Positions 3,421 to 31,856 of a stretch of DNA of 34,653 nucleotides are shown here, one piece after another. Position 1 is the first letter of the stretch. Every line of letters starts with the position of its first letter. The DNA is from a virus. Under the pieces are notes generated by a model. It was given only the letters and a program-made list of their open reading frames with translations. It made no database searches and had not been told where the DNA came from. Where the stretch lies: positions 1-34,653 of the IMG/VR virus record IMGVR_UViG_3300006924_000078. One strand, written 5' to 3'. A program made the translations under genes and the position numbers.

Positions 3421-3428
3421 TATAAATA
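3421..3428 (+). promoter_or_regulatory. T4-type late promoter (TATAAATA)
   Basis: Exact match to the T4 late-promoter octamer recognised by the phage gp55 sigma factor in T4-like phages. It lies 42 bases upstream of the giant structural gene, and is the only exact copy I noticed between genes here. It probably drives the collar and adhesin genes as well, since no later promoter was seen. Confidence 0.8.
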
Positions 3429-15692: not shown

Positions 15693-16919
15693 ATGGCAAC
15701 TTACGGAACACTTAAGACAATGAAAGCCGCCGCCATTGGCACCATCATGCCATGGGGCGGCGACTTGACAGGCATCCCCGCTGGATGGTTAATTTGCAAT
15801 GGTCAGACACTAGAAGCAGACGATTTCCCATTACTTACACAGGTAATTGGAGATAACTATGGCGGTACAACTTTAGGAGGAGTATTTCCAAATTATAGTG
15901 GATCAATTGCTCTTCCTAATATTAATCAAAGAGCACTGGTCGATCTTGACTCTTCATATTTTGATAATAGTAATAGTATTGATACAACTGAAGCACTCGC
16001 TGCCTTAGTTGATCCAGTAAATGGAGCAAACTTTCTTGGAACTGACATCGATAATGGTGTTGGTGATGATTATGATGCATATACTGATGTTAATTTTGCA
16101 TATACACCAGAGAGTGACTTCAATGGAAAACTAACTGGCGCTAATTTGAATGAAACTTTTGGATCAAAGACAGTATACATGTCTCATCGAAAGTTGGGTA
16201 GGAGACATATTTTGATTCATAGTCACCCAACTACATTTGACACCATGTATCTTCCCTCTTCGGGAACGAGACCAGGAAAAGGTGTTGCTGCATGGGGTGA
16301 GATTAACTATCGTATTTCTCGTGCAAACTTTGACCAATTAGATTATGGTCAGGTTCAGGCACAGTTGACTATTCAGTATACAAATGACCAAGGATTTGGT
16401 GGTGGTGCTCCAGGTGTCGTGGTTGCTAATGTTCAGGGTGAAGGACCAACATTTAACCTAAAACCAGTGAATGTTGTTGGATCTCCAATTTCTAACTGGT
16501 TCGGTCCATATCAAGTTCCAAACACCACTAGTAGTAATACAATGGATGAGGAGTTTCAAGCAGGAGATACATTAGCATATACTCCTGGTGGTGGTACAAC
16601 AACTGTTGCCAACAGAAACTTTGACAATGGTGGTGCCAATAGTGGTGACACACAGACTTATACTAAAGCAATGTTTGATAGCAATGCTATTAGTTTCAAC
16701 CAAAATGCGACAATTGCTGGTCAGCAAGCAGTTATTCAACCACATAATCATGAACCATTTGAGACTACTTTTGATAAATCAAATTTAAGAATTCCTAGCA
16801 CTGTCAATGTAACTGCTATTTCAAATGTTACACCACAGAATATCGATAAGGCATTCCGTCTAGATGTATCTGTTCCAACACCTAATCTAATCTGTTTATA
16901 TTTAATTAGAGCATACTAA
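15693..16919 (+). CDS. Tail-collar-domain fibre protein, 408 aa
   Basis: The N-terminus carries a phage tail collar domain: GTIMPWGGDL, then PAGWLICNGQTL and DFPLLTQVIGDNYGG (residues about 16-60), followed by ALPNINQRAL (73-82). This is the arrangement of T4 gp12-type short-fibre and other receptor-binding proteins. The middle is a beta-rich insertion. Two His-x-His pairs are present: HSH near residue 176 and HNH at 351-353; in T4 gp12 and gp37 such pairs bind metal inside the trimer. It ends in LIRAY, resembling the ends of the other two collar proteins here. Its stop overlaps the next start (TAATG). Likely a trimeric fibre or adhesin-connector in the virion tail. Confidence 0.85.
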   Translation: MATYGTLKTMKAAAIGTIMPWGGDLTGIPAGWLICNGQTLEADDFPLLTQVIGDNYGGTTLGGVFPNYSGSIALPNINQRALVDLDSSYFDNSNSIDTTEALAALVDPVNGANFLGTDIDNGVGDDYDAYTDVNFAYTPESDFNGKLTGANLNETFGSKTVYMSHRKLGRRHILIHSHPTTFDTMYLPSSGTRPGKGVAAWGEINYRISRANFDQLDYGQVQAQLTIQYTNDQGFGGGAPGVVVANVQGEGPTFNLKPVNVVGSPISNWFGPYQVPNTTSSNTMDEEFQAGDTLAYTPGGGTTTVANRNFDNGGANSGDTQTYTKAMFDSNAISFNQNATIAGQQAVIQPHNHEPFETTFDKSNLRIPSTVNVTAISNVTPQNIDKAFRLDVSVPTPNLICLYLIRAY

Positions 16920-17791
16920 TGGCAAATTACGCAAGAGAACGAGGAAAATATGGTGGGGTTGTGGGAGCAATCCAAATTTTTACTAGTGATTTGCCTCTCC
17001 AAGGCGACCCGTTGGATCCAGTTTGGAGGAAAAAAATTCCTGGTGGATTTTTACGCTGCGATGGTAAAATATATGATGCTGGTGACTACCCAGAATTGGC
17101 AGCAGTTTTGGGTGTTGGTAGTGCTTGTAAGTTTAAAAAACCAGAAATTGAATTAAGTGCAACGCAATTTCAAGTACCTGATGTTGGTGCTAAGTTTCTT
17201 TCTCCTGGTTTAGCATCTGGTACTTATCAGAGCACGGTTCTTGCTCAAACTGTCACAGAAAATAATAGTGGTGATATTAGAGTTGGTGCTGAAGTTCTAG
17301 TATCTGCACAATCAAATACTTTTACTATTGGATATAGTGGAAACTTCACTGTTGTTGGTCAATCTGATGTTGAATTACAGGGAAATGCAAAATTTAAACC
17401 ACCAAATGAAGATAGAGAAACTGGAGCAGCATTTTTAGATTCATCTTCTTTTCAGGCACATGGTCATAACACTAATGCAAAAGTGTTGAACTATACAGGT
17501 AACTTTAAAGTTGGTGCTGAGGGTAAAAGTGGAACTGATTTAACACCTTTCGCAGGTAATAGTATTATAGGATCTGGTAATCCTACTAATGATGCTGCAT
17601 CAAATCACTTACATGGTATTAGTTGGCCATCAACAACTGATTATGATCAAAATTACGTGTTTCAATTCCCTACATTTAATGTCGCAGCAGATAATTTGCA
17701 AACAACTTTAACTGTACAAACAAAAACAATTGATGAACTGCCAGAATCAATTCAACCTTTCATTTTAGTAGAGTATATTATTAAATTTTAA
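16919..17791 (+). CDS. Tail-collar-domain fibre protein, 290 aa
   Basis: A second collar protein, shorter and divergent. The core is GAIQIF, PGGFLRCDGKIY, DYPELAAVLG (residues about 16-65) and QVPDVGAKFLSPG (85-97). The second half is beta-rich with His-x-His pairs HGH (181-183) and HLH (230-232). It ends in EYIIKF, aligning with the IIKAY and LIRAY ends of its neighbours. It is coupled to the previous gene by a 1-base TAATG overlap and followed after 2 bases by the Ig-like adhesin gene. Probably a virion fibre component that pairs with one of the adjacent adhesins (inference). Confidence 0.8.
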   Translation: MANYARERGKYGGVVGAIQIFTSDLPLQGDPLDPVWRKKIPGGFLRCDGKIYDAGDYPELAAVLGVGSACKFKKPEIELSATQFQVPDVGAKFLSPGLASGTYQSTVLAQTVTENNSGDIRVGAEVLVSAQSNTFTIGYSGNFTVVGQSDVELQGNAKFKPPNEDRETGAAFLDSSSFQAHGHNTNAKVLNYTGNFKVGAEGKSGTDLTPFAGNSIIGSGNPTNDAASNHLHGISWPSTTDYDQNYVFQFPTFNVAADNLQTTLTVQTKTIDELPESIQPFILVEYIIKF

Positions 17792-17793
17792 CC

Positions 17794-19839
17794 ATGGCAG
17801 ATTTAATTTACGACTTAAGACCAGGAAGTGCAGGACTTGACTTTACTGGAGTTAATGATTATCTAAATGGTTGTGCCATTTATAATAGTTGTTTTGGTGT
17901 CTCTGGTTCTTGCGGAACTGGTGAACTTGGTGGATTCCAAAATAATATTGGTACAAAACATATAAGTTTTGGTACTTTCAATTCTACTTTGTTTGTGCAA
18001 AATAGGATAGCGCAGTTTGCATTGAATACCACCAACATGGATTATTTGATCATCGATCTGATTACAGGTGATGATTTTAATGGTGGAGAAAGACCAAACA
18101 ATTCCAATGAAGGTCTTAAGTTTAAATGTACCACTGGTGGCGACAATAGTACAACACAATTAGTTGCTGGTGGAAGTGGATACGGTCCATATCCAGGTGT
18201 GGAAGGTGGTGCTGGATGGATTACACGACAATATAATATTCCTGCTTCTAATAGAGGAAATTTTCTCTGGCAACTGTTCTGTACAGCAAACTCACCTGAA
18301 TTCCAAGGTGCTGGTGGTGTTTTTGCAAATAACCAGAATGCTGGTGATAGATATGCTGTTTCTAGAATTAGAATTTATGGCACTGTTCCTACAACTATCA
18401 CATACTTCAGAGCGAATGATGATTCACCTGACACAATGATTGATCCTGGTGCTCCAGTTACTTTATCTTGGAACACTAATTTGGGATCATTTTCTGGTGC
18501 TACTAGTGGATCGATTAATCAAGGTGTTGGTGCTGTTTCACCTATTGGTAGTGGATCTACTACAATTAATCCTGGTCCCACAACAGAGACTACTTATACT
18601 TTAACTGTACAAGGTCCAACAGGATCTTTAACGAAGCAGGTAACTGTTGAGATGGATGTTCCTGACAGTGATCCAGATTTATTTACATTTGATTCTATAA
18701 TAGATGCAGAAACTAGTACAGTATATACTAGTAACTCGATAACAGTTACTGGATTGGAGACTGGTGTAACACTCCAGGCATCAAATGGTGCATCGACTTC
18801 TAAAAATGGTGGAACCTTTAATACTAGTAATAAAACTGTTAATAATAATGACACGGTGAGGGTTAGAATGACCTCATCTGGAACCTTTAATACATTAAAG
18901 ACATCAACTGTTCAAATTGGCAGTGCATCTGCAACATTTAAAATTACTACTAAGTCTGAACCAGCACAGATTCCAAATGGTTTTGATTTTAATGATGTAT
19001 CGAATGCTAATTTAAATACTACTATTACTAGTAACTCGGTAACGATCACTGGTATTACACAACCAGTTCCTGTTAGTGTTCCTACAAATGGATTCTTGAG
19101 TTCTGTTAACGGCGGTAACTTTAATGCTAATGCAAAAACTATTTCTAATGGACAAACAATACGATTAAGATATACTACCACTGGTAATACTGGAGAACTT
19201 GCAAGTAGTTCAATTGTTGTCGGTGGTGGTGCTTCCGTTGATTGGAATATTACTAACCAAGGAACTGCAGATACTGATCCTGATTATTTCTTCTTTGAAG
19301 ATGAAGACAATGTGGGCGCTAATACATTGACCACAAGTCAACCAGTTGTTATTACTGGTATCAATATACCAACAAATGTTACTGCATCTAATGGTGCTCA
19401 GATTAGAGTTGGTACTGGGAGTTGGACTAATGGAAATACAGGAACTACAATTACTAATGGACAGAATCTGAGAGTTAGAATTACATCTAGTGCAGATCCT
19501 GGTGGTGTTGTAGAAACTGATGTTACTGTTGGTGCTCTATCAGATACATTTACAGTGACAACAACTACTGCAAATGATACTACACCAGATCCATTTTACT
19601 TTGCTAACAGAGATAATCAGGCACCTAATACATACATTGAGAGTAATGTAATTGTATTGCAAGGTATCACATCACCATCTAATGTAGTTGTTACTGGTGG
19701 ACAGTTTTCTAAAAATAATGGCAGTGGATGGAGTGGATTTGCAGCAACAGGTCAGGTAAATAATGGTGACCAGTTTAAAGTTAGAGTTTTAACTGGTGGT
19801 TTAGCAACATCTAGTAATTTAAGCGTAACTATTAGTTAA
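17794..19839 (+). CDS. Ig-like-repeat adhesin / tail fibre protein, 681 aa
   Basis: The N-terminal 200 residues or so are a unique beta-rich domain (DLRPGSAGLDFTGVNDYL start, several Cys). Then come five consecutive Ig-like beta-sandwich modules: one starting TTITYFRANDD (near 203), followed by four of about 100 residues beginning DLFTFDS, GFDFNDV, YFFFEDE and PFYFANR (near 295, 395, 500, 600). Each has an S-NS-V-ITGI strand, an S-NGG or analogous turn, a NGDT-x-RLR motif and an IG-x(5)-W/F-x-ITT end. Phage Ig-like domains commonly give weak surface binding on tail or capsid proteins. The C-terminal 480 residues match the C-terminus of the next protein domain by domain. No signal peptide. The start codon of the next gene follows the stop immediately. 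Confidence 0.8.
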   Translation: MADLIYDLRPGSAGLDFTGVNDYLNGCAIYNSCFGVSGSCGTGELGGFQNNIGTKHISFGTFNSTLFVQNRIAQFALNTTNMDYLIIDLITGDDFNGGERPNNSNEGLKFKCTTGGDNSTTQLVAGGSGYGPYPGVEGGAGWITRQYNIPASNRGNFLWQLFCTANSPEFQGAGGVFANNQNAGDRYAVSRIRIYGTVPTTITYFRANDDSPDTMIDPGAPVTLSWNTNLGSFSGATSGSINQGVGAVSPIGSGSTTINPGPTTETTYTLTVQGPTGSLTKQVTVEMDVPDSDPDLFTFDSIIDAETSTVYTSNSITVTGLETGVTLQASNGASTSKNGGTFNTSNKTVNNNDTVRVRMTSSGTFNTLKTSTVQIGSASATFKITTKSEPAQIPNGFDFNDVSNANLNTTITSNSVTITGITQPVPVSVPTNGFLSSVNGGNFNANAKTISNGQTIRLRYTTTGNTGELASSSIVVGGGASVDWNITNQGTADTDPDYFFFEDEDNVGANTLTTSQPVVITGINIPTNVTASNGAQIRVGTGSWTNGNTGTTITNGQNLRVRITSSADPGGVVETDVTVGALSDTFTVTTTTANDTTPDPFYFANRDNQAPNTYIESNVIVLQGITSPSNVVVTGGQFSKNNGSGWSGFAATGQVNNGDQFKVRVLTGGLATSSNLSVTIS

Positions 19840-22800
19840 ATGGCATTTACAACAGTCACCTATGATACAGCAGGAACATATAATATTGTTCTGCCAACTA
19901 ATGTGAAATCTCTTACATATGAGATGCGGGGCGCTTCTGGAGGAAAAACTGGTCCTGGTGGTAACACTAATCCAGGTTTTACTGCTGGTGCTCTAATTAA
20001 TGGAGGACCAGGAGAAAAAATTACTGGCGAATTAGATGCTGTTGCTTGTTCTGGCAAAACATTAGTAGTGCAAATTGGCACTAAAGGATTTGCTGGAACT
20101 ACTAACAGTGGTAATGATGGTAACGCTTCTGGAGGCACAGGACCATTTAGCGGTGGTGCAGGTGGATCACAACCTGGCAATGAAACATTTTGTAATTCTG
20201 GTGGTGGCGGCGGTGGTGGTGCTGCAACCGCTGTTAGTGTAGATAATGGATTTATTCTTATCGCTGGTGGTGGTGGCGGAGCAGGTGGTGCTACTTATGA
20301 TTCATGGGACTCTCAGTATAGAACTCCAAACGGATCTGCTATTGCTGCTGGTATAGTACAAACAACACTAAATGCAGGTGCTGGACAATCAGGTGGTAAT
20401 GGAAATACTGCTGCTAACGCTGGCGGTGGTGGAGGTGGTGGTGGAAATAATTTAAATTTTTTCGCATATGGTGCTGGTGGTGCTGTCCAAATATCAGGTA
20501 ACCATATTGGTGGTAACCATGGATTTAAGGGTGGTAGTTATAAGGATATTAATTTTGTAACGGAAGCATCTACAAGTATTAATGCATTTAATGATAATGA
20601 TGGATTCTTTGAGTTGGTATATGAGACTGGAGATCCACCTAATATACAATTTAATGTTTCTCCTGCTGCTGTTATTGTTAATGGAACAGGTGCTACTTTA
20701 AGTTGGGAATGTACAGGGGATGCGTCTTCTGCACCTACAAATGTTACCTTGAATGGCAATAATGTTGCTTTTGTTGATACTCTGCCTGTCAATCCGACTA
20801 GCACTACAACATATACTATTGTTGCTACTGGTCCTGGTGGAATTACCAGTGATAGTATTGTATTAACTGTTATTCCAGCAGGTGATTCGCTAAACAATGA
20901 GTTTGTTACTACCTATGGTACTGGTTCACATACTCTACAAGTTCCTGCAGGTACAACAAATGCATTCGTAACTATTGCTTCTGGTAGAGGTGGATCAGGC
21001 GGTTCTGATTCTGGTGGATCTGGTTGTCCTGGTGGTGCAGGTAGAGTAGGACAATTTAGGTTAAAGGATAACGGTGCAGGGAACCCATATGGTACTGCAG
21101 GATCACTTAATCAAACTATCTATCAGAATACTACAGTTGCTGTCCCTGCTGATATTAATGAAGTTAATTATGTAATTCAAGGTGGTAAAGGGGGAAGCAC
21201 TGCCGCATTTACTACTGGAAAGTTAGGACAGAAAATTAGTGGAGTATTAACAAATGTCGCTGGACAAACATTAAGTATTGTAGTTGGTGGTAATGGTGGT
21301 GCAGGCAACTCTGCAGTTGACTTAGGATCGCCAGGTCAGGGATATGATGATGGTGGTGAAGGTGGTGATAATTCTACAGTTAGTTCCACATATGTCACTG
21401 TTCCTCTTTACAGATATCTTAATTCTACTACTGGAGATCACTTTACTGGTATAGATCTTGTACCTCCAACTGGTTACACTAATGAAGGACAACTTGCTAA
21501 TGTATTCACTGATCCACAACCACCAGGAACTGTTGTACTAACCGATCAAGAACCAGGAAAACCAGCTAGTACATATACCGCATATGTTTTTCCTCCAACT
21601 GGAACAACACCATTTTTTATTGATGTAACTGAAATTCCAACAACTCTCTTTTATACCAAAACAAATGGAACTGATGTTTTATATACATCTAATGTAACTG
21701 AAGGAAACAGTGCTAGTCCAGCATATGTATTGGATACAGCAAATAATGCATTTGGATATGCATTTTATGCGCCAACTTCTCAAGTTACTTTAACAGTTGA
21801 TGGTGCAACCAGTGTAAGAGGTGGTGGAGGTGGTGGATCCAGTGCTATTCACCTTGGTAATACCTCTCTAGTTGTTGCTGGTGGTGGAGGTGGTGCTGGT
21901 GGTCCTGATGCTTGTGGAACACTAGATCAAACAAGTGGACAAGGTAACGGTATTTTATATACTACTGGTGCTAGAGCAACTGGACTAGATGGTGGCAACG
22001 CAACGCCAGACGGCGGTGGTGGCGGTGGCGGTGGATCAGGTGGTGGTTGGACACCTAGTAATCTTGCTGGTACTGGTGGTGCTCCATGTGTTGGTGGTAC
22101 TGGTGGTCAAACAGGAAATGGATACTATAATCTCTCATATTCTCAGAATGCTGGTGTTTTAACTCAAGGAGATAATTTCAACTCTGGTGATGGATATATA
22201 ACTCTTTCTGGTGCTGGAAATAACAACTGGAATTTGATTATTCGAGTAGGAGATCAAGGAAATAATGGTGCATCTGGTTCTCCTGGTGGAAAACCTGGAG
22301 GTTCAGGTGGCGGTGGTGCTGCAGGATTTATGGATGGTGGATCAGGTGGTAGTGATAGTTTAGGTAGTGGATGGTCAGGTTCAGGTGGTGGCGGTGGTGC
22401 AGGATCTGGAATTTATGATACAGATAATACTCGTTGGTTTGCTTCTTCTGGTGCAGGCGGTGGCGGAGGTGGCGGTTCTCTAAATGCAGGTTGTTCTGGA
22501 TCAGCACCTTCTGGTGGTTCGTGGTCTGCTACTACTAATGTTAGTGCTGCTGATGGCGGCACAGGTTCCTCTCAAGGTGGAGATGGTGCTGGCGGCGGTG
22601 GCGGTGGCGGTGGTCACTCTGGAGGTGGCGGAGGTGGTGCTGGTAGCGACAACAGTTCTGGTGGCGGTAACGGTGGATCTGGAACATCGCGTTATGACCA
22701 GAATGCATTAGAATTATTACAAGGTGGTAGTACAAATAGTGCTAGTGGATATGCAATTGTTTCATTTTCTGTACCACCACAAATTGCATATTTTAGAGCA

Positions 22801-24204
22801 GATGATAACAATACTTCCACTGATGTTTATGAAGGAGATGTTGTAACTTTATCTTGGAGTACATTATTCAATGGTGTTGAATCAGCGTCTTTTGCTGAAA
22901 TTGACAATGGTATTGGCACTGTTAGTGTTGGTGTACAATCAACAACAGTTATTGCTCCTTCTGTACCAACGACTTACATATTAACAGTAAGTAATGCTGG
23001 CGTATTCTCACAGAGAGCTGTTACACTTAATGTATTGGCACCAGATAATATTCCTGATCTTTTTGCTTTTGATAGTATTTTTGATGCTGACTTAAGCACT
23101 CAGTATATTAGTAATGAAGTGACAATCACTGGCATTCAAGTTGATGTTACTGGTTCTGCATCTAATGGAACATTTTTATCAGTAAATGGTGCTGCATATA
23201 CTCAAAGTGCTGTTACTATTAGCAATGGTGATACAGTAAGACTTAGACTTGTCTCGCCTGATACATATACCTCAACATTGACTAGCACAATTACTATTGG
23301 ATTAACTAGTGCTCAGTGGAATATTACTACTGCACAAGAACCAGGACAATTCCCTAATGCATTTGAATTTGAAAATGTTTTGGGTGCTCCAACAGAGTCT
23401 TATGTACAAAGCAATGAAATTACAATTACTGGTATTACTGTTCCAGTAATTGTGTCTGCTCCTACAAATGGATTTGAAAGTTCTGTTAACGGTAGTTCAT
23501 TTAGTACAGCACAGAAAGTTATTAATAATGGAGAAGTTTTAATCCTTAGATATCTTACGAGTGGTAACTTGGGTGAGTCGGCATCTACTTTTGTTACTGT
23601 TGGTGATAGTCCAAACAAAAACTGGTCAATTACTAATGTTACAACTGCTGATCAAGATCCAGATTACTTTGATTTTGTTAATGTTGTTGGTGCTGCAGCA
23701 AATACATTCATCGAAAGTTTACCACAGGTGATTGCTGGTATTAATGTTCCTACACCAATTACATTAACTGGTGGAGCACAGTTTAGAGTAGGTACTGGAG
23801 CATGGCAAACTACTGGAAATATAAATTTAAACGATGCTGTTCAATTGAGAGTTACTTCTAGTGCTGATTATGGTGGTGAAGTAGAAGTAGATGTTACTAT
23901 TGGATCTCTTACTGATATTTGGAAAGTTATCACTACTACAGATGGCGATCAAATTCCAGATGCTTTCTTCTTTATCAACCAAACTAATCAAGTACCAAAT
24001 TCATTTGTTTACAGTAATACTGTTCTTGTGCAAGGTCTTACTGCTGCAGCAAATATTACAGTAACTGGAGGCAACATTAAAGTTGGTAATGGCGCATGGG
24101 CAAACTCAGGACAAATAAATAATGGTGAGACATTGCGTTTAAGAATACTTACACCCAATGGTCTCAGTCAAACAGGAAACATGTCAATCACAGTTGGTCC
24201 ATAA
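19840..24204 (+). CDS. Glycine-rich adhesin with Ig-like C-terminus, 1454 aa
   Basis: A mosaic tail adhesin. Residues 1-255: beta-rich with poly-Gly clusters (near 121, 143, 193). Residues 265-345: an Ig-like domain with LSWEC and TTTYTIVATGPGG. Residues about 360-520: further Gly-rich modules. Residues about 520-648: a segment YRYLNSTTGDHF...GYTNEG resembling DUF5648-type repeats of extracellular proteins. Residues about 660-955: extremely Gly/Ser-rich with many 5- to 8-Gly runs. Residues about 979-1454: five Ig-like modules homologous in order to those of the preceding protein. Poly-Gly segments of this type pack as polyglycine-II helices in the gp38 adhesins of T-even-like phages, so a receptor-binding role is likely (inference). 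It is TAATG-coupled to the third collar gene. Confidence 0.8.
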   Translation: MAFTTVTYDTAGTYNIVLPTNVKSLTYEMRGASGGKTGPGGNTNPGFTAGALINGGPGEKITGELDAVACSGKTLVVQIGTKGFAGTTNSGNDGNASGGTGPFSGGAGGSQPGNETFCNSGGGGGGGAATAVSVDNGFILIAGGGGGAGGATYDSWDSQYRTPNGSAIAAGIVQTTLNAGAGQSGGNGNTAANAGGGGGGGGNNLNFFAYGAGGAVQISGNHIGGNHGFKGGSYKDINFVTEASTSINAFNDNDGFFELVYETGDPPNIQFNVSPAAVIVNGTGATLSWECTGDASSAPTNVTLNGNNVAFVDTLPVNPTSTTTYTIVATGPGGITSDSIVLTVIPAGDSLNNEFVTTYGTGSHTLQVPAGTTNAFVTIASGRGGSGGSDSGGSGCPGGAGRVGQFRLKDNGAGNPYGTAGSLNQTIYQNTTVAVPADINEVNYVIQGGKGGSTAAFTTGKLGQKISGVLTNVAGQTLSIVVGGNGGAGNSAVDLGSPGQGYDDGGEGGDNSTVSSTYVTVPLYRYLNSTTGDHFTGIDLVPPTGYTNEGQLANVFTDPQPPGTVVLTDQEPGKPASTYTAYVFPPTGTTPFFIDVTEIPTTLFYTKTNGTDVLYTSNVTEGNSASPAYVLDTANNAFGYAFYAPTSQVTLTVDGATSVRGGGGGGSSAIHLGNTSLVVAGGGGGAGGPDACGTLDQTSGQGNGILYTTGARATGLDGGNATPDGGGGGGGGSGGGWTPSNLAGTGGAPCVGGTGGQTGNGYYNLSYSQNAGVLTQGDNFNSGDGYITLSGAGNNNWNLIIRVGDQGNNGASGSPGGKPGGSGGGGAAGFMDGGSGGSDSLGSGWSGSGGGGGAGSGIYDTDNTRWFASSGAGGGGGGGSLNAGCSGSAPSGGSWSATTNVSAADGGTGSSQGGDGAGGGGGGGGHSGGGGGGAGSDNSSGGGNGGSGTSRYDQNALELLQGGSTNSASGYAIVSFSVPPQIAYFRADDNNTSTDVYEGDVVTLSWSTLFNGVESASFAEIDNGIGTVSVGVQSTTVIAPSVPTTYILTVSNAGVFSQRAVTLNVLAPDNIPDLFAFDSIFDADLSTQYISNEVTITGIQVDVTGSASNGTFLSVNGAAYTQSAVTISNGDTVRLRLVSPDTYTSTLTSTITIGLTSAQWNITTAQEPGQFPNAFEFENVLGAPTESYVQSNEITITGITVPVIVSAPTNGFESSVNGSSFSTAQKVINNGEVLILRYLTSGNLGESASTFVTVGDSPNKNWSITNVTTADQDPDYFDFVNVVGAAANTFIESLPQVIAGINVPTPITLTGGAQFRVGTGAWQTTGNINLNDAVQLRVTSSADYGGEVEVDVTIGSLTDIWKVITTTDGDQIPDAFFFINQTNQVPNSFVYSNTVLVQGLTAAANITVTGGNIKVGNGAWANSGQINNGETLRLRILTPNGLSQTGNMSITVGP

Positions 24205-25871
24205 TGGCATATACTACTACTTGGTCTGTATCGACCTACGCTAGTGCTGATAATGTACAGTTCGGGCATTGGTACAGTCAGCGAAATCCTAAACTAGATG
24301 GTCTGACAATTGGAACTGTCATGTCTATCTTTAGAAATAAGACAGGTAATTGGGGTACTCTCGATGGAGATTTAAACTCTAGATTTCCTGGATGGATTGA
24401 ATGTGACGGTAGAACAGTAAGCGCACAAGATTATCCAGATTTATTTGATGCTATTGGCACAACATATGGTGGCACCGCAACAAAAACTCTGAGTGGTAAT
24501 ACTTACACATATTCTGGTAACTTTAAACTACCAAACTATCATAATAGAAAATTATTTGGTATTGGAAATGTAGATGGTAATTCACCATCCTCTCCTACTA
24601 TTGTTACTTACAAAGGTCCTGATATAACTCAAGGTGCTAGTGGTGACTCTACTACTGTTGGATCACAAGGTGGCAACTGGTTTATTAAAAAAATTGATGG
24701 GGTTGGTACTCCTCCTGATGAACAAGTATTTCCAGGTATTACACAACCAGATGGTCAAGTTGTTGGATTTCAGTTGTGGCAGAACGAAGATATTGCAACT
24801 GACGCATATGTAACCAAAGCAATTGGTGAATGGGTACAGAGAACTGAAGGTGGTAGTCCAGACTATTGGAACACTGTAAATGATTTTCAAGAAGCAGATA
24901 TTACAATTACTGGTGGTAGTGGTACTGGATTGAAAGTTAGAGTGAGGGCAGAAGCACAATTAGATGATGCAGGAACTTCACCAGATGACACTAGATTTAA
25001 AATTATGACAGTATTAAATGCTGGTGCGAACTATCAGGTGGGTGACACGATGAATATTGTATTCCCATCACCTGCTCCTGGTGGTGGTACTATTAGCTTG
25101 TCTCCTGGTCTCAGAGTATTGACTGTAACAGATGCATTTACAACCAATACTGATGGTAAATTTTTTAAATTAGGATCTCTTACAACTACTGGTATTCAAG
25201 GTATATCTGGTGAAATTGATTATGAAATTACTGGAGACTTGCAAGCAGATATTGGACCATTGAATCCAACTCCTACTATTCCAGCACAGCATACTCATGA
25301 TATTATTACAGCAACAGTAGACCAAATTGGTGTCGGATATGTTGCGTGGGGAACTCCAGGATTCTACGGGATTAATGAAACGGACATCAAGAGTACTACT
25401 TACAGTAGTATTGGTTACAATAGTGTAGTATCTCCTGGTGGTGAAGTTAACTTTTCATTCAATAACTATTGGGCAGGAGATGTTCAAAATAGCATTCCTG
25501 GTCTTGCAAGTGGTGGTAATGCATCTGCTGCTATTGGTGTAAATGAAGTTCAGGGTAACATGATTGTATATAACCCAGGAACATTAAGAACACATACACA
25601 TTATCTACAGCAATCAGAATTTGGTGATCCTGAAAATGTCTATGGACTAGGTAATGTTAACGGTGGTGGTACTGCAGCAGGTGGTATGGCAACCAATAAT
25701 ACTACAACTATTAATTTTTCTCAAACAGATCTAGCATTAACTTCCAACCAGGCAGATTTTGAGTTAAACTTATCTAAGACAGTAGTTCCAACACCGTCTC
25801 TTGTACCAGAAAGTACTATTCCACTATTGACTAAATACCATCGAGTCAAGTATATTATTAAAGCATATTGA
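24204..25871 (+). CDS. Tail-collar-domain fibre protein, 555 aa
   Basis: The third collar protein. GTVMSIF, FPGWIECDGRTV, DYPDLFDAIGTTYGG and FKLPNYHNRKLFG (residues about 37-119) form the collar core. A large insertion follows, including a glycine-containing beta segment (near 230-310). His-x-His pairs appear at HTH 363-365 and HTH 464-466. The C-terminus KYIIKAY matches the ends of the two smaller collar proteins. It overlaps the adhesin stop by one base. Together with the two collar genes at 15693-17791 it brackets the adhesin pair, suggesting collar and adhesin are assembly partners. Confidence 0.82.
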   Translation: MAYTTTWSVSTYASADNVQFGHWYSQRNPKLDGLTIGTVMSIFRNKTGNWGTLDGDLNSRFPGWIECDGRTVSAQDYPDLFDAIGTTYGGTATKTLSGNTYTYSGNFKLPNYHNRKLFGIGNVDGNSPSSPTIVTYKGPDITQGASGDSTTVGSQGGNWFIKKIDGVGTPPDEQVFPGITQPDGQVVGFQLWQNEDIATDAYVTKAIGEWVQRTEGGSPDYWNTVNDFQEADITITGGSGTGLKVRVRAEAQLDDAGTSPDDTRFKIMTVLNAGANYQVGDTMNIVFPSPAPGGGTISLSPGLRVLTVTDAFTTNTDGKFFKLGSLTTTGIQGISGEIDYEITGDLQADIGPLNPTPTIPAQHTHDIITATVDQIGVGYVAWGTPGFYGINETDIKSTTYSSIGYNSVVSPGGEVNFSFNNYWAGDVQNSIPGLASGGNASAAIGVNEVQGNMIVYNPGTLRTHTHYLQQSEFGDPENVYGLGNVNGGGTAAGGMATNNTTTINFSQTDLALTSNQADFELNLSKTVVPTPSLVPESTIPLLTKYHRVKYIIKAY

Positions 25872-25879
25872 GGTAGATT

Positions 25880-26539
25880 ATGGGAGCACAACCGATTCGT
25901 CCTATGGAATTAATGGACGATCCTAATATTACTAAGTCTGATTTTACGGACTTCATTGGTGTATGGGAAAATTTTGTACCAAAAAGTAGATGTGAAGCAT
26001 TTATTAAACATTTTGAGAATGTCACTTCTAATGCTTCCGTAGTAGGAGGAGATGATATCACTCTGGGTGGAGTCATGGACGGCACCAATCAGTTTCCACA
26101 AGGATCTTTAGGCAGAAAAGATGAGTCTATTCTCATCAATTACTCTGATCCTAATATGAATTATGAAATTAATCAGTATCTTACAGCATGTGTTCAACAT
26201 TATATTGAGAAGTATGATCAACTAAAGCATGGTAAGTATGTGTCGGAAGATTCTAAGATGCAGAAGACAAAACCTGGCGGTGGATATCATGTCTGGCATT
26301 ATGAGAGTGCGGGGTTTGGACATCATGCAAGAGAACTGGTTTGGGCAATCTATTTAAATGATATGCCCGAAGGTGAGGCAGAGACTGAGTTTCTCTATCA
26401 AAGAAGAAGAATTAGACCTACAGCAGGCACAGTAGCTGTTTGGCCAGCAGGTATGACTCATGTACATAAAGGCAATACGGTATTTACTCAAGATAAATAT
26501 ATATTGACAGGATGGTATATTAAGGTTCCTAATAAGTAA
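25880..26539 (+). CDS. 2OG-Fe(II) oxygenase-like protein with HxE variant
   Basis: 219 residues with a 2OG-Fe(II) dioxygenase pattern: GGGYHVWHYES places iron ligands at His140 and Glu142 (HxE in place of the usual HxD), distal His194 or His196 in MTHVHKG, and Lys206 (QDKYILTGW) where 2-oxoglutarate is usually bound by Arg or Lys. Two strands, LVWAIYLNDM and GTVAVWPAG, match the double-stranded beta-helix core. The HxE variant and the Lys are seen in related prolyl-hydroxylase-like enzymes, so activity is plausible. It lies 8 bases after the collar gene with ribosome binding sequence GAGG, and starts the post-adhesin oxygenase cluster. Confidence 0.8.
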   Translation: MGAQPIRPMELMDDPNITKSDFTDFIGVWENFVPKSRCEAFIKHFENVTSNASVVGGDDITLGGVMDGTNQFPQGSLGRKDESILINYSDPNMNYEINQYLTACVQHYIEKYDQLKHGKYVSEDSKMQKTKPGGGYHVWHYESAGFGHHARELVWAIYLNDMPEGEAETEFLYQRRRIRPTAGTVAVWPAGMTHVHKGNTVFTQDKYILTGWYIKVPNK

Positions 26540-26540
26540 A

Positions 26541-27485
26541 ATGGCAGAATATTTCTATCAAAAACCAACAGACGAAGAAGTTAAGGAATTTTGGTCAAAG
26601 ACCATTAGACCTAGAGAATCTGTCATGGAATTGAACTTCTCTGAAAAAGCAGTTACTCTAGGTAATGTTGCTGAAGGTGGTCTAACTACATTTATTGATG
26701 AGAAAGCATGGGCAGATATTGTTCTTCCTTCTATTTCATCAGAATGGCATGACCCAGGTAAAGATGAAATAAAGAACTTAATTCTTTATAGTGATGATAC
26801 ATATCTCTGCTTTAGATCTAAGATGAGATATGAGTTTGATACAAATACTACTCGATGGGTAGATTATACTTATAAAAAGGGTAATGTATCAGACATTAAA
26901 ACTATCAACGAAACTATTCGTGCTGTTGCTGTCATTCAAAAAGAAGTAAAACAGAGAGAACTTCTGGAAGAAGTAAGAAAGTTAAATCTGGAGGCACTTG
27001 ATTATTATTATGATACTAAGTGGTATAAAAGAATAGATGAAATTCAGAAAATGTTATTGTATTCTGATTGGAGAGTTCTCCCTGATGCACCACAGAAATT
27101 TGATGGTGAGCAAGCTCTATGGATTACTTGGAGAGATAAACTAAGAAATCTTCTTCCGAAAAATCCAAGAGAAACATTTTCGGATAACTTTGAAATGTTT
27201 AAATTTGTTCAAACATTGAAGTATCCAGTTGATCCTTCTATATACATGGAAACATATCCTAACCGTGATGTAGAGTATTTGTCTACTGATGATCAGTTTC
27301 ACAAGTATGATTTCCAAGTATCTAAAGATTTTGTTGGTAAAACTCAATTAAATTTGATTACATTCTTAGAAACATATGATACTAATACTAGACCTATTGA
27401 AGCAAAAGTGTTAGAATTGGCAAAGGCGTTGAAATTAGAAACTGTTTACGAAGGACTTGATTACGAAAAATTTGTTGCTGAATAA
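26541..27485 (+). CDS. Probable tail-fibre assembly chaperone, 314 aa
   Basis: Residues about 160-210 (WYKRIDEIQKMLLYSDWRVL, then PDAP and ITWRDKLRNLL) resemble the small phage tail assembly chaperone domain, in which an R-x-x-LL-x-x-SDW-x-x-LPDAP motif is followed by a W-x-x-[YW]-R-x-x-LR helix. Residues 1-130 are a mixed domain without a recognised motif, and the C-terminus (FVGKTQLNLITFLETYDT onward) is helical. Gene position directly after the fibre and first oxygenase genes suits a helper for folding or trimerising the fibres. It starts 1 base after the previous stop. Assignment rests on one motif and on context; a non-chaperone role is possible. Confidence 0.6.
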   Translation: MAEYFYQKPTDEEVKEFWSKTIRPRESVMELNFSEKAVTLGNVAEGGLTTFIDEKAWADIVLPSISSEWHDPGKDEIKNLILYSDDTYLCFRSKMRYEFDTNTTRWVDYTYKKGNVSDIKTINETIRAVAVIQKEVKQRELLEEVRKLNLEALDYYYDTKWYKRIDEIQKMLLYSDWRVLPDAPQKFDGEQALWITWRDKLRNLLPKNPRETFSDNFEMFKFVQTLKYPVDPSIYMETYPNRDVEYLSTDDQFHKYDFQVSKDFVGKTQLNLITFLETYDTNTRPIEAKVLELAKALKLETVYEGLDYEKFVAE

Positions 27486-27488
27486 TAT

Positions 27489-28133
27489 ATGATTTATGAA
27501 TATGATATGCTCCCTAAAGGAGTTGTGAAAAATGTACTTGATTTCTATCAGTTTTGTGAATTTACAGACGGTTCTTGGTCTGGATCTCAGAATAAACAAT
27601 TAAAGTACAATGAACAATTGTTGGATGAATCACATTATCCAACTCTTGTTTCTATGATGAATAAGTATATCGCTGAGAACCAGGGATTTAATTATTACTT
27701 TGTTCCTAGCGCACATACACATCCAAACTTTCTTAGATATAAAGAAGGTATGCATTATCATTGGCATAATGATATGTGGATCATGGATGGCATCAAGACA
27801 GATTATAGTATAACTGTATTTCTTAGCGAACCTGATGATTATGAAGGTGGAGAACTAGAAATTGAAGTTGGTGATTCTGCAGTAGAATATAAACTAGAGG
27901 CAGGTAGAGCAGTAATCTATCATACTGGACTAAGACATAGAGTTAAACCAGTCTTGAAAGGTGAACGAAATGTAGTTACATGGTGGTTTACTTCTATGAT
28001 TGACAATGGTAAGGTTCGTGATATAATTACAGAATACTCTCGTCTGCTTTCTGAGACACCTATGGATCCAAGTGTGAAGTGGAAGTTTGAGAATATTCGT
28101 CAAAACTTGATTAGAGAACATGCAACTTTCTGA
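27489..28133 (+). CDS. PKHD/PiuC-like 2OG-Fe(II) hydroxylase
   Basis: 214 residues with a complete facial triad: HND (His93, Asp95), distal His150 in LRHRVKPVLKGER, and Arg160 for 2-oxoglutarate. The segments ITVFLSEPDDYEGGELEIE and AVIYHTGLRHRVKPV closely follow the PKHD-type (PiuC) hydroxylase pattern and resemble the oxygenase at 2720 (DPNEYEGGELEF, LPHRVKPV), so the two may be distant paralogues. A helical C-terminal extension of about 45 residues follows. It overlaps the next oxygenase gene by 14 bases. The substrate is unknown; fibre protein or a host component are both possible. Confidence 0.88.
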   Translation: MIYEYDMLPKGVVKNVLDFYQFCEFTDGSWSGSQNKQLKYNEQLLDESHYPTLVSMMNKYIAENQGFNYYFVPSAHTHPNFLRYKEGMHYHWHNDMWIMDGIKTDYSITVFLSEPDDYEGGELEIEVGDSAVEYKLEAGRAVIYHTGLRHRVKPVLKGERNVVTWWFTSMIDNGKVRDIITEYSRLLSETPMDPSVKWKFENIRQNLIREHATF

Positions 28134-28638
28134 TATTAAGGAGTATCCTAACTTCTTTTCTGCCACTGATCATCTATCAATTAATAGAGCAATTAGCAAA
28201 AAACCATGGTATTGGGGACATCAGAGTCATCCCAAGAAAAATAGTGGTCTACCTCCATTTTGGCAGATGCTATTAAATGATGATGCCTTCTTCTCAGACT
28301 ATCTCCTAAATAAGATTAAGGAAAATACTGGTAATGAATATGATCTTGAGCGTGTTTACGCAAATGGTCAAACTTATGGTATGAGAGGCAGTATTCACCA
28401 AGATGGATTTGATGAGAGTTGCAGAACTCTATTATATTATCCTCTTGAAGTTTGGAATCCTGAGTGGAATGGCAAGACTGCTTTTAAACTAGGGAATGAA
28501 TATCGTTATGTTACTCCTGAACCAAACAAAGCAATTATATTTCCTGGCGCAATCCCACACTGGGCAGAAGAAACTTCTAGAACATTTGCTTCACTGAGAA
28601 TCACTATCGCATGGAAACTGTTTATTAAAGTAAAATGA
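28120..28638 (+). CDS. 2OG-Fe(II) oxygenase, 172 aa
   Basis: A compact dioxygenase: IHQDG gives His93 and Asp95, followed by the strand RTLLYYPLEVWNPEWNGKTAFK; AIIFPGAIPHWAEET gives distal His147; and RITIAWK places Arg160 at the 2-oxoglutarate site. The W-x-x-EWNGKTAF segment is characteristic of the group of small phage oxygenases related to prolyl-4-hydroxylase. It overlaps the preceding oxygenase (14 bases) and the next gene (ATGA), so expression is coupled. No membrane or export signal is seen. Confidence 0.85.
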   Translation: MQLSDIKEYPNFFSATDHLSINRAISKKPWYWGHQSHPKKNSGLPPFWQMLLNDDAFFSDYLLNKIKENTGNEYDLERVYANGQTYGMRGSIHQDGFDESCRTLLYYPLEVWNPEWNGKTAFKLGNEYRYVTPEPNKAIIFPGAIPHWAEETSRTFASLRITIAWKLFIKVK

Positions 28639-28970
28639 ACTATCAGGTATACGAATTTCAAGAAATTATTGAACAAGCAATTGCTTGGAGAAGGAGACCC
28701 ACTGTCTTTGTTCGTAATATCGGTCCACGAGCAATTACTGATGATGCCAGACGCGATGAAGTCTATGGCATCTATAGAATGTTACTGTCAAATGATGTAA
28801 TGCAAGGTTTGCTTAAAAATGAGTATATCTTCATTAGTTTTGATGATTTGGATGATGCAAGAGAGTATGCTGTGGATAAGTTCCCAAGAAATAGTGAGGG
28901 AGATGCTGATATGTACTTGCAAGTTGAAGTATATGATAACGAAGGCAGAATCGAATACGATAATAAGTAA
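28635..28970 (+). CDS. Hypothetical protein, 111 aa
   Basis: Not recognised. It has an arginine-rich segment (AWRRRPTVFVRNIGPRA, residues about 17-33) followed by an acidic, alternating helix/strand second half (FDDLDDAREYAVDKFPRN, LQVEVYDNEGRIEYDN). It is ATGA-coupled to the upstream oxygenase and 2 bases before the next gene, so it belongs to the same operon. No catalytic motif. Confidence 0.6.
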   Translation: MNYQVYEFQEIIEQAIAWRRRPTVFVRNIGPRAITDDARRDEVYGIYRMLLSNDVMQGLLKNEYIFISFDDLDDAREYAVDKFPRNSEGDADMYLQVEVYDNEGRIEYDNK

Positions 28971-28972
28971 TC

Positions 28973-29836
28973 ATGGCAGTAACAGAATATTATATGGGTG
29001 CTCAAGAGCACAGTATTAACACAGAAACATTCTTAAACTACCATAGATATGTTCCTCAGGCATATGTAAAGTATGATCTAATTACTGAACCTGCTCGTGT
29101 AAAGTTGCAAGAGTTCTGGGAATTTATCAAGATATCTACACTCAAACCAGGATATTTGTCAACAGCATTGTTAAAGACAAATGATTCTGGTATTTGGTTT
29201 ACAACAACTGATAATACATTTGCTGAAGATCTGTCATTTCATGCATATAGTACAGTAGATTATAGAACAGTTAATCGGAATGAGTTGTTTGCCATGTTTG
29301 GTAAGACACAACCAGAATTGATGTCTCATCTTCTATTGGAAGAGTTAGATATTGGACTTGAAGGTATATCTGTCTCTCCTAGTGGTGAATTACAAAAATG
29401 CATTTTTGTATTCAGACCCAACTCACATGTTCTTTCACTTCTGAATCTTCCTAACTATGATAAACTACAGAAGTTTGTAGATCTTAGTTTTGAAGAATTG
29501 AAGACATCTAATAATGCATCCACATCGTTTAGTTCTCCAATTCGCTTGCAAGTAGATCCAAATGATGATACACTGTCTGTAGAATTTGTAAGTGCTTTCT
29601 TCCAGAAAGATCTTTATATTAGTGGTGGCAATCATGATTCTTATCTCGGTAGAAAGAATCATTACTTTGATAGAATGATTGAAGCAGATCTTTTAACAAC
29701 AGACGAGGTTGCATATTGTAAGACAAATAGTCCATCTTGGCAACAATTCTCCATCAAATTTAAATATAGTGGTGGTGAGTTAGTAGATAAAAAACTGTAT
29801 ACATTTGATGTTAGTGACTTTGAAACTGTAACATGA
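28973..29836 (+). CDS. Unrecognised protein within oxygenase cluster, 287 aa
   Basis: I do not recognise this family. The protein is mixed alpha/beta with regular strand-like segments (GIWFTTTDNTF, QKCIFVFRPNSHVL, IRLQVDPNDDTLSVEFV, FSIKFKYSGGEL) and a helical stretch around residues 45-60. It has no signal peptide or membrane segment. It lies between oxygenase genes and overlaps the next one by 4 bases (ATGA), so it should be made at the same time and in similar amounts. A partner, substrate-binding or second modifying function in the same pathway would fit the position, but nothing in the sequence shows it. Confidence 0.65.
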   Translation: MAVTEYYMGAQEHSINTETFLNYHRYVPQAYVKYDLITEPARVKLQEFWEFIKISTLKPGYLSTALLKTNDSGIWFTTTDNTFAEDLSFHAYSTVDYRTVNRNELFAMFGKTQPELMSHLLLEELDIGLEGISVSPSGELQKCIFVFRPNSHVLSLLNLPNYDKLQKFVDLSFEELKTSNNASTSFSSPIRLQVDPNDDTLSVEFVSAFFQKDLYISGGNHDSYLGRKNHYFDRMIEADLLTTDEVAYCKTNSPSWQQFSIKFKYSGGELVDKKLYTFDVSDFETVT

Positions 29837-30399
29837 TCCTTGGTAGTATTATCCACGAGTATAAACTTGATTGTTTAGATGTAAACGAACGAGTTATTGA
29901 TTTCTTATATCAATACAAGAAAGCACAATCTACTTCTGATGTTAGATCTAATAGAAATGGATGGCAGAAGAATCATCTAGAGAATTTTCCACAACTTAAA
30001 CCTCTCACTGATCTACTTGCTGTAGAGTTTGAGAGGTTTATTTGTGATCAAATGTTGCCATTGGTTGAGACACGATTTTATCTTGGTAATTTGTTTTGTA
30101 ATATCAATCCACCAGGTGCTGTGCATGTACCACATGTACACCAAGGAGATTTTACTGGAGTATATTACTTGCAAGCACCAGAAGATTGTGGTACGCTTAG
30201 TATTTTGAATCCCCATCAATGTTCCAACACTGCTAGAATGACATCTATGTTTGCTGGTGTCAAACTAGAACAGAAGATTATTCCCACTGCTGGCACTGGG
30301 TATTTCTTTCCAACACACCTTGTACACTATGTTGAGGAGAATCTATCACAATCAGATAGGATATCCTTGTCATATAATATTAATGTCGAACCAAAATGA
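29833..30399 (+). CDS. Putative 2OG-Fe(II) oxygenase (2OG-FeII_Oxy_5-like)
   Basis: 188 residues. The block NINPPGAVHVPHVHQGDFTGVYYLQAP matches the N-x-N-x-x-G...H-x-H...G-V-Y-Y-L pattern of the 2OG-FeII_Oxy_5 family, split here at residues about 90-116. A distal THLVHYVEEN (His165) and Arg176 in DRISLSYNI complete the usual order. The first ligand pair reads His101-Val-His103 rather than HxD; this family often shows that form, so the real acidic ligand is uncertain (Asp106 is close by). It is coupled on both sides by 4-base overlaps. Confidence 0.78.
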   Translation: MILGSIIHEYKLDCLDVNERVIDFLYQYKKAQSTSDVRSNRNGWQKNHLENFPQLKPLTDLLAVEFERFICDQMLPLVETRFYLGNLFCNINPPGAVHVPHVHQGDFTGVYYLQAPEDCGTLSILNPHQCSNTARMTSMFAGVKLEQKIIPTAGTGYFFPTHLVHYVEENLSQSDRISLSYNINVEPK

Positions 30400-30983
30400 T
30401 CTGTAAAGTTATTGATGGATTGTTTGATCCTGTATATCTACATCAAATAGATTCAGTGGTGAGAGATATTCCCCTGTCTACAAATAATATTGCTAATAGG
30501 AAAACATATCCTTATGGCACAGAAGGCACACATAGACTGATGGGTCAAATACTATTCAATCGTGAGGATATTAATACTATCACCACATTGAAACCTGAGT
30601 GTGAAGACTTCTTTAAGATCTTGAAAGTAGTTGAGAAAGAACTCAATGCATACTTCTATTGCTCTCAGATAACTGTAAATGTGCAGCACAGTGGTTGTGA
30701 TGGCACTACACATGTTGATAGTCCTGATCCAAACGACTATACTATACTATTATTCTCTTGTGCCACATGGAAACAAGAGTGGGGTGGACAGTTTCAGTTG
30801 TGTACATCAGACGGTGAAATTGTGGAGGAACACGAGTATATTCCTGGTCGCGTTATATTAGTACCATCAAAACACCCACACAGAGGTTTAGGACCAACTG
30901 AACCATATATCTATAGATCATCTGTAGCATTTAGAGTTACCCCATTAGACCATCATCTTCGTACAAATTACCAAGGACAATGA
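30396..30983 (+). CDS. 2OG-Fe(II) oxygenase, prolyl-4-hydroxylase-like, 195 aa
   Basis: Complete signature: THVDS (His106, Asp108), strand YTILLFSCATW, the WGGQFQL motif typical of prolyl-4-hydroxylase-type enzymes, GRVILVPSKHPHRGLGP with distal His162, and Arg174 (IYRSSVAFRV). The N-terminal 90 residues form a helical cap with two or more Cys. It is coupled upstream and downstream by ATGA overlaps. The divergent sequence relative to the other six oxygenases suggests separate acquisition rather than recent duplication. Confidence 0.85.
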   Translation: MICKVIDGLFDPVYLHQIDSVVRDIPLSTNNIANRKTYPYGTEGTHRLMGQILFNREDINTITTLKPECEDFFKILKVVEKELNAYFYCSQITVNVQHSGCDGTTHVDSPDPNDYTILLFSCATWKQEWGGQFQLCTSDGEIVEEHEYIPGRVILVPSKHPHRGLGPTEPYIYRSSVAFRVTPLDHHLRTNYQGQ

Positions 30984-31174
30984 AAGTACCAACACAATCA
31001 GAACTTACTCATTTGCAGTTACAAGCAATGATGAGAGAAAACTCATTTCCAGAGAGTGAACTATGTTATCTGGGTATGAGAGATGGCGAATACTGGTATT
31101 TGATTGCTGGTGAACATGAAGTACCAGTATCTGCTATTGAAGATTTAACTCAGGTAAGTGATGATGCAGTTTGA
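30980..31174 (+). CDS. Hypothetical protein, 64 aa
   Basis: A small protein with an N-terminal amphipathic helix (SELTHLQLQAMMRENSFP) and a strand-rich C-terminus (CYLGMRDGEYWYLIAGEHEV). Not recognised. Overlapping starts and stops on both sides place it in the oxygenase operon. Its last 14 bases overlap the next gene. Confidence 0.55.
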   Translation: MKVPTQSELTHLQLQAMMRENSFPESELCYLGMRDGEYWYLIAGEHEVPVSAIEDLTQVSDDAV

Positions 31175-31823
31175 TGATCTAAAAACATTTGGTGTTACAT
31201 ATAATAAGTTTACACGAGATGATCTAGAATTTCTATATCGTCAAGTTGATCTCATTCGTAATAACTTTGGCAGTGCAGTGCCTGCTAATGAAGATCTTAT
31301 TGGTCACATAGATCATGAGTATTTCTTACCTGATCAGTGTAAACAGCAGTTAGAGACACTAGTTCTGCCTATGGTTGGTGCATATCTACAAGAGTATCCA
31401 ACATATAATAGAGCGAAACTTGGTGTGTTATCTGATGGTGTGCCTATTATTTTAAGAGATGCATGGGTAAACTTTCAGAAGAAGTATGAGTACAACCCCG
31501 TGCATGATCATGGTGGTGCTTTTAGTTTTGTATTATGGTTAAAGATACCATACACAAGAGAAGATGAAGATGGTGTGTCATTTACTCAAAAACTACACAA
31601 GGATGCACTAACATCTAATGGTAAGTTTGAATTCTTTTATAATGATACTTTTGGTGGTATCTACAGTCACAAACTACCAATTGATCCATCATATGAGGGT
31701 ATGATACTATTGTTTCCATCAACCATGAAGCATTGTGTCTATCCATTCTATACATCCGATGACTACAGAATATCAATATCAGGAAATTTCTATCTCGACA
31801 CAGGGAGTGGACAGTCCGCATAG
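31161..31823 (+). CDS. Putative 2OG-Fe(II) oxygenase, 220 aa
   Basis: The core block NPVHDHGGAFSFVLWLKIP (residues 112-130) and ILLFPSTMKHCVYPF (182-196) with Arg203 before ISISGNFY follow the dioxygenase order His-x-His...His...Arg (His115, His117, His191, Arg203). As in the gene at 29833, the second ligand position is His in place of Asp. A GTG three bases upstream (31158) and a second ATG at 31164 are alternatives; AGG at 31152-31154 best fits the ATG at 31161. It is the last gene before a strong terminator, so it closes the late tail operon. Confidence 0.72.
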   Translation: MMQFDDLKTFGVTYNKFTRDDLEFLYRQVDLIRNNFGSAVPANEDLIGHIDHEYFLPDQCKQQLETLVLPMVGAYLQEYPTYNRAKLGVLSDGVPIILRDAWVNFQKKYEYNPVHDHGGAFSFVLWLKIPYTREDEDGVSFTQKLHKDALTSNGKFEFFYNDTFGGIYSHKLPIDPSYEGMILLFPSTMKHCVYPFYTSDDYRISISGNFYLDTGSGQSA

Positions 31824-31833
31824 TGGACTACAG

Positions 31834-31856
31834 GGACGCACATGCGTCCTTTTTTT
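31834..31856 (+). terminator. Rho-independent terminator
   Basis: GGACGC (31834-31839) and GCGTCC (31844-31849) form a G+C stem around ACAT, followed by seven T (31850-31856). It lies 10 bases after the last oxygenase stop. A second small stem, AGTCC/GGACT (31813-31829), spans the stop codon just before it. It separates the tail operon from the methyltransferase block. Confidence 0.9.

Follow-up and report, generated by a model that had tools for sequence, protein, structure and literature searches.

The viral contig IMGVR_UViG_3300006924_000078 of the IMG/VR database, analysed here over its whole length of 34,653 nucleotides (the window), is a marine cyanophage genome fragment with seven genes for 2-oxoglutarate (2OG)-Fe(II) oxygenases, six of them in a block at 25880-31823 that follows tail-fibre and adhesin genes and the seventh at 2720. 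The block may be a late-expressed, fibre-linked protein-modification cassette of S-PM2-like cyanomyoviruses, most likely hydroxylating fibre proteins, a reading that is held here with moderate confidence. Active-site conservation, purifying selection, apparent membership of one late unit with the fibre genes and a strict gene order, all read from sequence, carry this reading. The constant core of the cassette would comprise an oxygenase (A), a relative of the Phage_tail_APC chaperones, two more oxygenases (B and C), a small protein and a protein of predicted PT-barrel fold; this arrangement, not the number of oxygenases, is what is striking.

The conserved core around a chaperone relative

The genes of the core, with amino acids abbreviated aa, are as follows.

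25880..26539, + strand: core oxygenase A, prolyl 4-hydroxylase-like, H140-x-E142, H194, K206 (profile and alignment)
26541..27485, + strand: divergent Phage_tail_APC (tail-assembly chaperone) relative, phrog_4697 (PF16778 via homologues)
27489..28133, + strand: core oxygenase B, PKHD/PiuC-type, H93-x-D95, H150, R160 (profile and alignment)
28120..28638, + strand: core oxygenase C, PHROG 274 type, H93-x-D95, H147, R160 (profile and alignment)
28635..28970, + strand: conserved 111-aa protein, phrog_4883, occupying the third place behind the chaperone relative in 65 loci
28973..29836, + strand: conserved 287-aa protein annotated as hypothetical, with a predicted PT-barrel (prenyltransferase-like) fold (structure model)

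Among 80 IMG/VR contigs found with the 26541 protein, an oxygenase gene stands immediately upstream of its homologue in 78 of 78 testable contigs and immediately downstream in 75 of 76; after the downstream one there usually come a PHROG 274 oxygenase and two proteins of about 117 aa and about 290 aa, and the block of A, chaperone relative and B sits directly after the last collar or fibre gene. A tree of 145 oxygenases contains one-to-one orthologues of 25880, 27489 and 28120 in Sf-CH1b, S-PM2, Syn1 and ACG-2014j, with 25880 and 27489 represented additionally in ACG-2014h and the 28120 clade additionally including one P-SSM2 gene.

In gene order the window agrees with the S-PM2/Syn1 group of cyanomyoviruses, whose fibre locus (T4-GC 734-743) likewise has a giant fibre, collar genes, oxygenase GC240, the chaperone relative GC741, PiuC GC28, oxygenase GC166, GC742 and GC743, and a late promoter identical to that of the window. 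Unlike these phages, the window has the extra oxygenases 30396 and 31161 and a gene of another clade at the 2720 place. In the S-PM2/Syn1 annotation one oxygenase is named "DNA endonuclease V" and the block is given no joint function. The nearest annotated relative found, Synechococcus phage Sf-CH1b (PV340850), has the entire island, with 89% DNA identity across it, but its complete genome has two further oxygenases elsewhere, one immediately before baseplate genes.

The chaperone-like gene of the original prediction can be read as a Phage_tail_APC relative through the profile matches of its family: PF16778 matches 19 of 49 aligned members (best 3e-8), and the shared motif is SDWRVLPD...WR, conserved as DWRxLPD ... 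WR. The window protein itself has no match to PF16778 (at an E-value cut-off of 1 in a Pfam search and of 0.01 in the search with its family), and it differs from Phage_tail_APC in its greater length (about 314 aa) and its place between two oxygenases. P-SSM2 has a PF16778 gene with an oxygenase and then a tail fibre behind it, in an otherwise different gene neighbourhood. The gene next to the S-SSM7 one matches PF13640 only weakly, below the cut-off, and in ACG-2014j an additional PF16778 gene, located among fibre genes, has no adjoining oxygenase. Within positions 96000-116000 of S-SSM7, the PF16778 gene is followed by a carbamoyltransferase, a tryptophan halogenase, an oxygenase, a cysteine dioxygenase and sugar genes, possibly a virion decoration island.

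All seven oxygenases are assigned by profile (PF13640, PF13759 or oxygenase PHROGs), and open reading frames, profiles and aligned residues agree with the earlier proposal of a dioxygenase pattern in each. PF13640 matches 2720 (5e-16), 27489 (1e-14) and 25880 (3e-7); 30396 falls just below the cut-off (4e-5) and 28120 below it (6e-4), these two being matched by PHROG 274 (1e-14 and 1e-32, respectively); and PF13759 matches 29833 (9e-14) and 31161 (2.5e-9). The expectation of at least three subtypes was borne out: PHROG 61 (2720, 25880 and 27489), PHROG 274 (28120 and 30396) and PF13759/PHROG 81 (29833 and 31161). So was that of mutual divergence, most pairs being undetectable by BLASTP and the best pair 29% identical. 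The residues His-x-(Asp/Glu) or His-x-His ... His ... Arg/Lys are invariant or nearly so across aligned relatives, and the two-His-one-carboxylate Fe-site and basic 2OG residues of A, B and C are invariant in alignments of 38-42 sequences each. Ratios of nonsynonymous to synonymous substitution (dN/dS) between the window and Sf-CH1b are 0.06-0.14 for all seven genes, indicating purifying selection, and the oxygenases look active.

The PHROG labels "DNA endonuclease V" (PHROG 274: 28120-28638 and 30396-30983) and "ferrochelatase" (e.g. P-SSM2 27677-28270) were judged to be misannotations because those genes match 2OG oxygenase profiles; the wrong names have likely been copied into RefSeq phage records.

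A probable late fibre unit

The oxygenases of the block most probably make up the 3' end of a late fibre unit 28 kb long (3471-31823), with the layout of a T4-like late operon: an upstream promoter, uninterrupted genes and an end terminator. Besides the block itself, the unit has these features.

3421..3428, + strand: T4-type late promoter TATAAATA, the sole exact match in the window
3471..15683, + strand: giant tail-fibre protein of 4070 aa, first gene of the late unit, with orthologues in S-PM2, Syn1, Sf-CH1b, ACG-2014j and ACG-2014h
15693..25871, + strand: five tail collar, short-fibre or glycine-rich adhesin genes (15693, 16919, 17794, 19840 and 24204)
31832..31851, + strand: intrinsic terminator closing the unit, 8-bp stem and T-run, with a similar hairpin after the unit in Sf-CH1b

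PHROG tail families match 15693, 16919, 17794 and 24204, the last of which also contains PF07484 (Collar), and 19840 matches virion structural genes of relatives. The promoter lies 50 bp upstream of the giant fibre gene; because about three chance matches to TATAAATA are expected in the window, this single match alone proves nothing. The late placing of the oxygenases depends on relatives, five of which keep the sequence 43-49 bp before the giant fibre gene and have it nowhere else in the unit; in the genomes of those five, 35 of 48 sites are intergenic and at most 100 bp before an open reading frame, compared with about 3% of positions. For S-PM2, NATAAATA has been reported as the late promoter (PMC2984593). 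Gaps of -14 to +3 bp between the genes from 25880 to 31823, and one strong terminator at their end, agree with the tight coupling and single terminator originally described. The suggested late, fibre-linked cluster holds, as judged from this layout, for the six genes of the block but not for 2720, which is upstream of the promoter and hence outside the operon.

An internal candidate promoter at 28000-28027, inside gene 27489, has 12 of 12 consensus positions but was discounted because such sites are common in AT-rich DNA (61 found, 42 expected) and because Sf-CH1b reads TTGATA there, not TTGACA. The main text of the paper on RNA sequencing of S-PM2d has no oxygenase data from which expression timing could be read.

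Possible substrates and competing explanations

By profile, the nearest solved relatives of A, B and C are protein hydroxylases or belong to a family named for them. For A these are prolyl 4-hydroxylases (E-values 9e-6 to 1e-3; PDB 5c5t, 3itq and 5hv0), which share with it a basic residue (Lys) at the 2OG position; the similarity is weak (9e-6), and A has HxE instead of the usual HxD. B matches the PKHD/PiuC profile at full length (positions 1-215 of 216, 4e-41), but is found in a tail context, whereas the PKHD-type hydroxylases Sbal_3634 and PiuC (PDB 3dkq and 9ghl) have an iron-receptor context. The nearest solved relative of C is OGFOD1 (6e-4). In the proposed mechanism, the chaperone relative would hold nascent fibre or collar proteins while the flanking oxygenases hydroxylate them during chaperone-assisted folding, the targets being Pro, Lys, Asn or Asp side chains of the collar, fibre and adhesin proteins encoded just upstream; the outcome would be virions with hydroxylated fibre tips, and flanking lineage-specific oxygenases might add extra sites matched to locally variable adhesins. 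The original prediction of a set of genes for modifying fibre proteins gains from the conservation of the core block around the chaperone relative in dozens of contigs, but its ordered multi-step pathway was too strong a claim, only the core being fixed.

The idea that seven oxygenases in one window are exceptional did not survive comparison with whole genomes. Pfam and PHROG oxygenase searches were also run over 18 genomes, and 13 complete cyanophage and pelagiphage genomes carry 5-23 oxygenases by profile, with published counts of 1-5, 10 and 24 per genome (PMC3037559, PMC9964418, PMC9602691), the 10 and 24 coming from the last two papers; therefore clustering, and not number, is the finding. 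Counted as a distance of at most five genes from a gene of structural size (at least 900 aa), clustering is evident in Sf-CH1b (6 of 9 oxygenases, 2.4 expected, p=0.008), with a similar excess in S-PM2 and Syn1.

Several points weigh against fibre hydroxylation. Over the 13 genomes together the clustering excess is modest, with 43 oxygenases close to large structural genes where 28.5 were expected (p=0.0016), and P-SSM2, Syn9, P-SSM4, P-HM1 and pelagiphage HTVC008M lack it, so that the superfamily as a whole cannot be given a tail role; fibre linkage for all cyanophage oxygenases was rejected, the excess being significant in some genomes only. Most oxygenases of other cyanophages have no link to fibres. 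The predicted model of 26541 has no PDB fold match below an E-value of 0.001, and its chaperone role therefore rests on sequence similarity. The fibres are not proline-rich (4-6%) and are without long collagen repeats, a collagen-like or Pro-rich substrate having been sought in them and not found. PiuC relatives are encoded in operons together with receptors for iron or siderophores, and PiuC itself has been suggested to act on a siderophore conjugate (PMC12004943). Finally, the enzymatic activity of the oxygenases, their substrate and chemistry and the modified residue are all predictions.

The most serious rivals to fibre hydroxylation are metabolic roles and PiuC-like small-molecule chemistry. 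Cyanophage 2OG-Fe(II) oxygenases are usually classed as auxiliary metabolic genes, and those of the block might consume 2OG or have host proteins, lipids or nucleic acids as substrates, their co-transcription with fibres being incidental; modulation of 2OG/NtcA and DNA repair have been suggested (PMC3037559), and many cyanophage oxygenases lie elsewhere in the genome with no excess near structural genes. Drawdown of 2OG would leave unexplained the fixed places of the orthologues beside the chaperone relative and their position behind a late promoter, however, and the nearest solved relatives include protein hydroxylases, making this alternative possible but somewhat unlikely. It is improbable that oxygenase B acts like PiuC on siderophore-type ligands, or that the proteins hold virion iron: B clearly belongs to the PKHD/PiuC family, with the TonB receptor neighbours and proposed substrate of PiuC already mentioned, but no receptor or siderophore gene is seen in the block, and what accompanies B constantly is a tail-assembly chaperone relative.

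The predicted PT-barrel fold of the 28973 protein permits another, rather doubtful, extension, in which the cassette would be a phage peptide-tailoring pathway with hydroxylases, a substrate-presenting chaperone and a PT-barrel enzyme adding prenyl or other alkyl groups to residues at the tail-fibre tip, yielding decorated adhesins. The model of this protein (predicted local distance difference test score 84, predicted template modelling score 0.86) has ten predicted strands, arranged as five beta-beta pairs separated by helices. In a fold search, all of its 20 best PDB matches are PT-barrel prenyltransferases, with a best E-value of 1.3e-4 and a template modelling (TM) score of only about 0.4. 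The fold recurs in uncharacterised proteins of S-CAM3, ACG-2014e, S-CAM1 and S-RIM44 (TM score 0.66-0.68, E-values down to 2e-14) at 12-16% identity. The protein has no prenyltransferase match among Pfam, NCBIfam or PDB sequences, and its S-PM2-like members have few conserved residues. The tryptophan halogenases beside oxygenase clusters in Syn9 and S-SSM7 would belong to the same trend; in Syn9 (30000-46000), two tryptophan halogenase genes precede a run of genes for proteins of about 200 aa, seven of which match oxygenase profiles.

A 2022 paper states that the viral functions of cyanophage 2OG-Fe(II) oxygenases had not been specifically investigated (PMC9602691), and no report of phage fibre hydroxylation was found in the open-access literature searched. 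When cyanophage S-TIM4 was evolved by passage on optimal and poor hosts, mutations arose in 20 genes, mostly structural; one of them was the oxygenase gene ORF23, which the authors took to be nutrient-related (PMC6224464). A conserved late block that ties oxygenase orthologues to fibres and a chaperone relative makes the question testable on the cultivated phages S-PM2 and Syn1. If fibre hydroxylation is real, phages would chemically modify their own host-recognition proteins, with consequences for host range and for the extent to which binding can be predicted from sequence alone.

Variable oxygenases and neighbouring genes

The remaining oxygenases differ in their distribution.

29833..30399, + strand: oxygenase D, PF13759, H101-x-H103, H165, R176, common to the window and S-PM2
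30396..30983, + strand: accessory oxygenase E, PHROG 274 type, with Sf-CH1b as its sole other carrier among the complete genomes compared
31158..31823, + strand: accessory oxygenase F (31161), PF13759, HDH motif, with relatives elsewhere in P-SSM7, P-SSM4, S-SM2 and P-SSM2
2720..3316, + strand: oxygenase preceding the late promoter and giant fibre, outside the operon, PF13640

The accessory genes 2720, 30396 and 31161 are lineage-variable and differ in ancestry, the core set alone being fixed. Closely related IMG/VR contigs have a gene of the 30396 subtype at the corresponding place, and in the oxygenase tree the relatives of 31161 and 2720 come from other positions in other phages. In S-PM2, Syn1 and ACG-2014h, the oxygenase before the giant fibre is of a clade different from 2720, so that non-orthologous genes of the same kind hold the same position in different phages. 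Such variability is what would be seen if the 3' end of the fibre operon were an insertion hotspot gathering mobile oxygenase genes with unrelated roles, but A, B, C and the chaperone relative keep their order and orthology even at about 26-60% protein identity; this explanation is already disfavoured for the core, and is quite improbable overall.

The PF13759 oxygenases (29833-30399 and 31158-31823) have His-x-His in 61 of 62 sequences, compared with His-x-Asp in most 2OG oxygenases. Their His-x-His...His...Arg is a putative metal site, and the aligned solved relatives appear alike: 29833 aligns along its catalytic half with PDB 2rg4 and 3bvc, with His at the metal motif in both, these being uncharacterised proteins without known substrate.

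A gene for a CpeT-like antenna protein (2054-2578) immediately precedes the 2720 oxygenase. Beyond the late unit, at 31888-33227, a DNA methyltransferase gene (PF01555) follows an orphan gene for a 206-aa protein (phrog_25220) for which neither Pfam nor PADLOC gave a family match better than chance; Sf-CH1b has the same pair, as does S-CAM22 judging by a DNA match.

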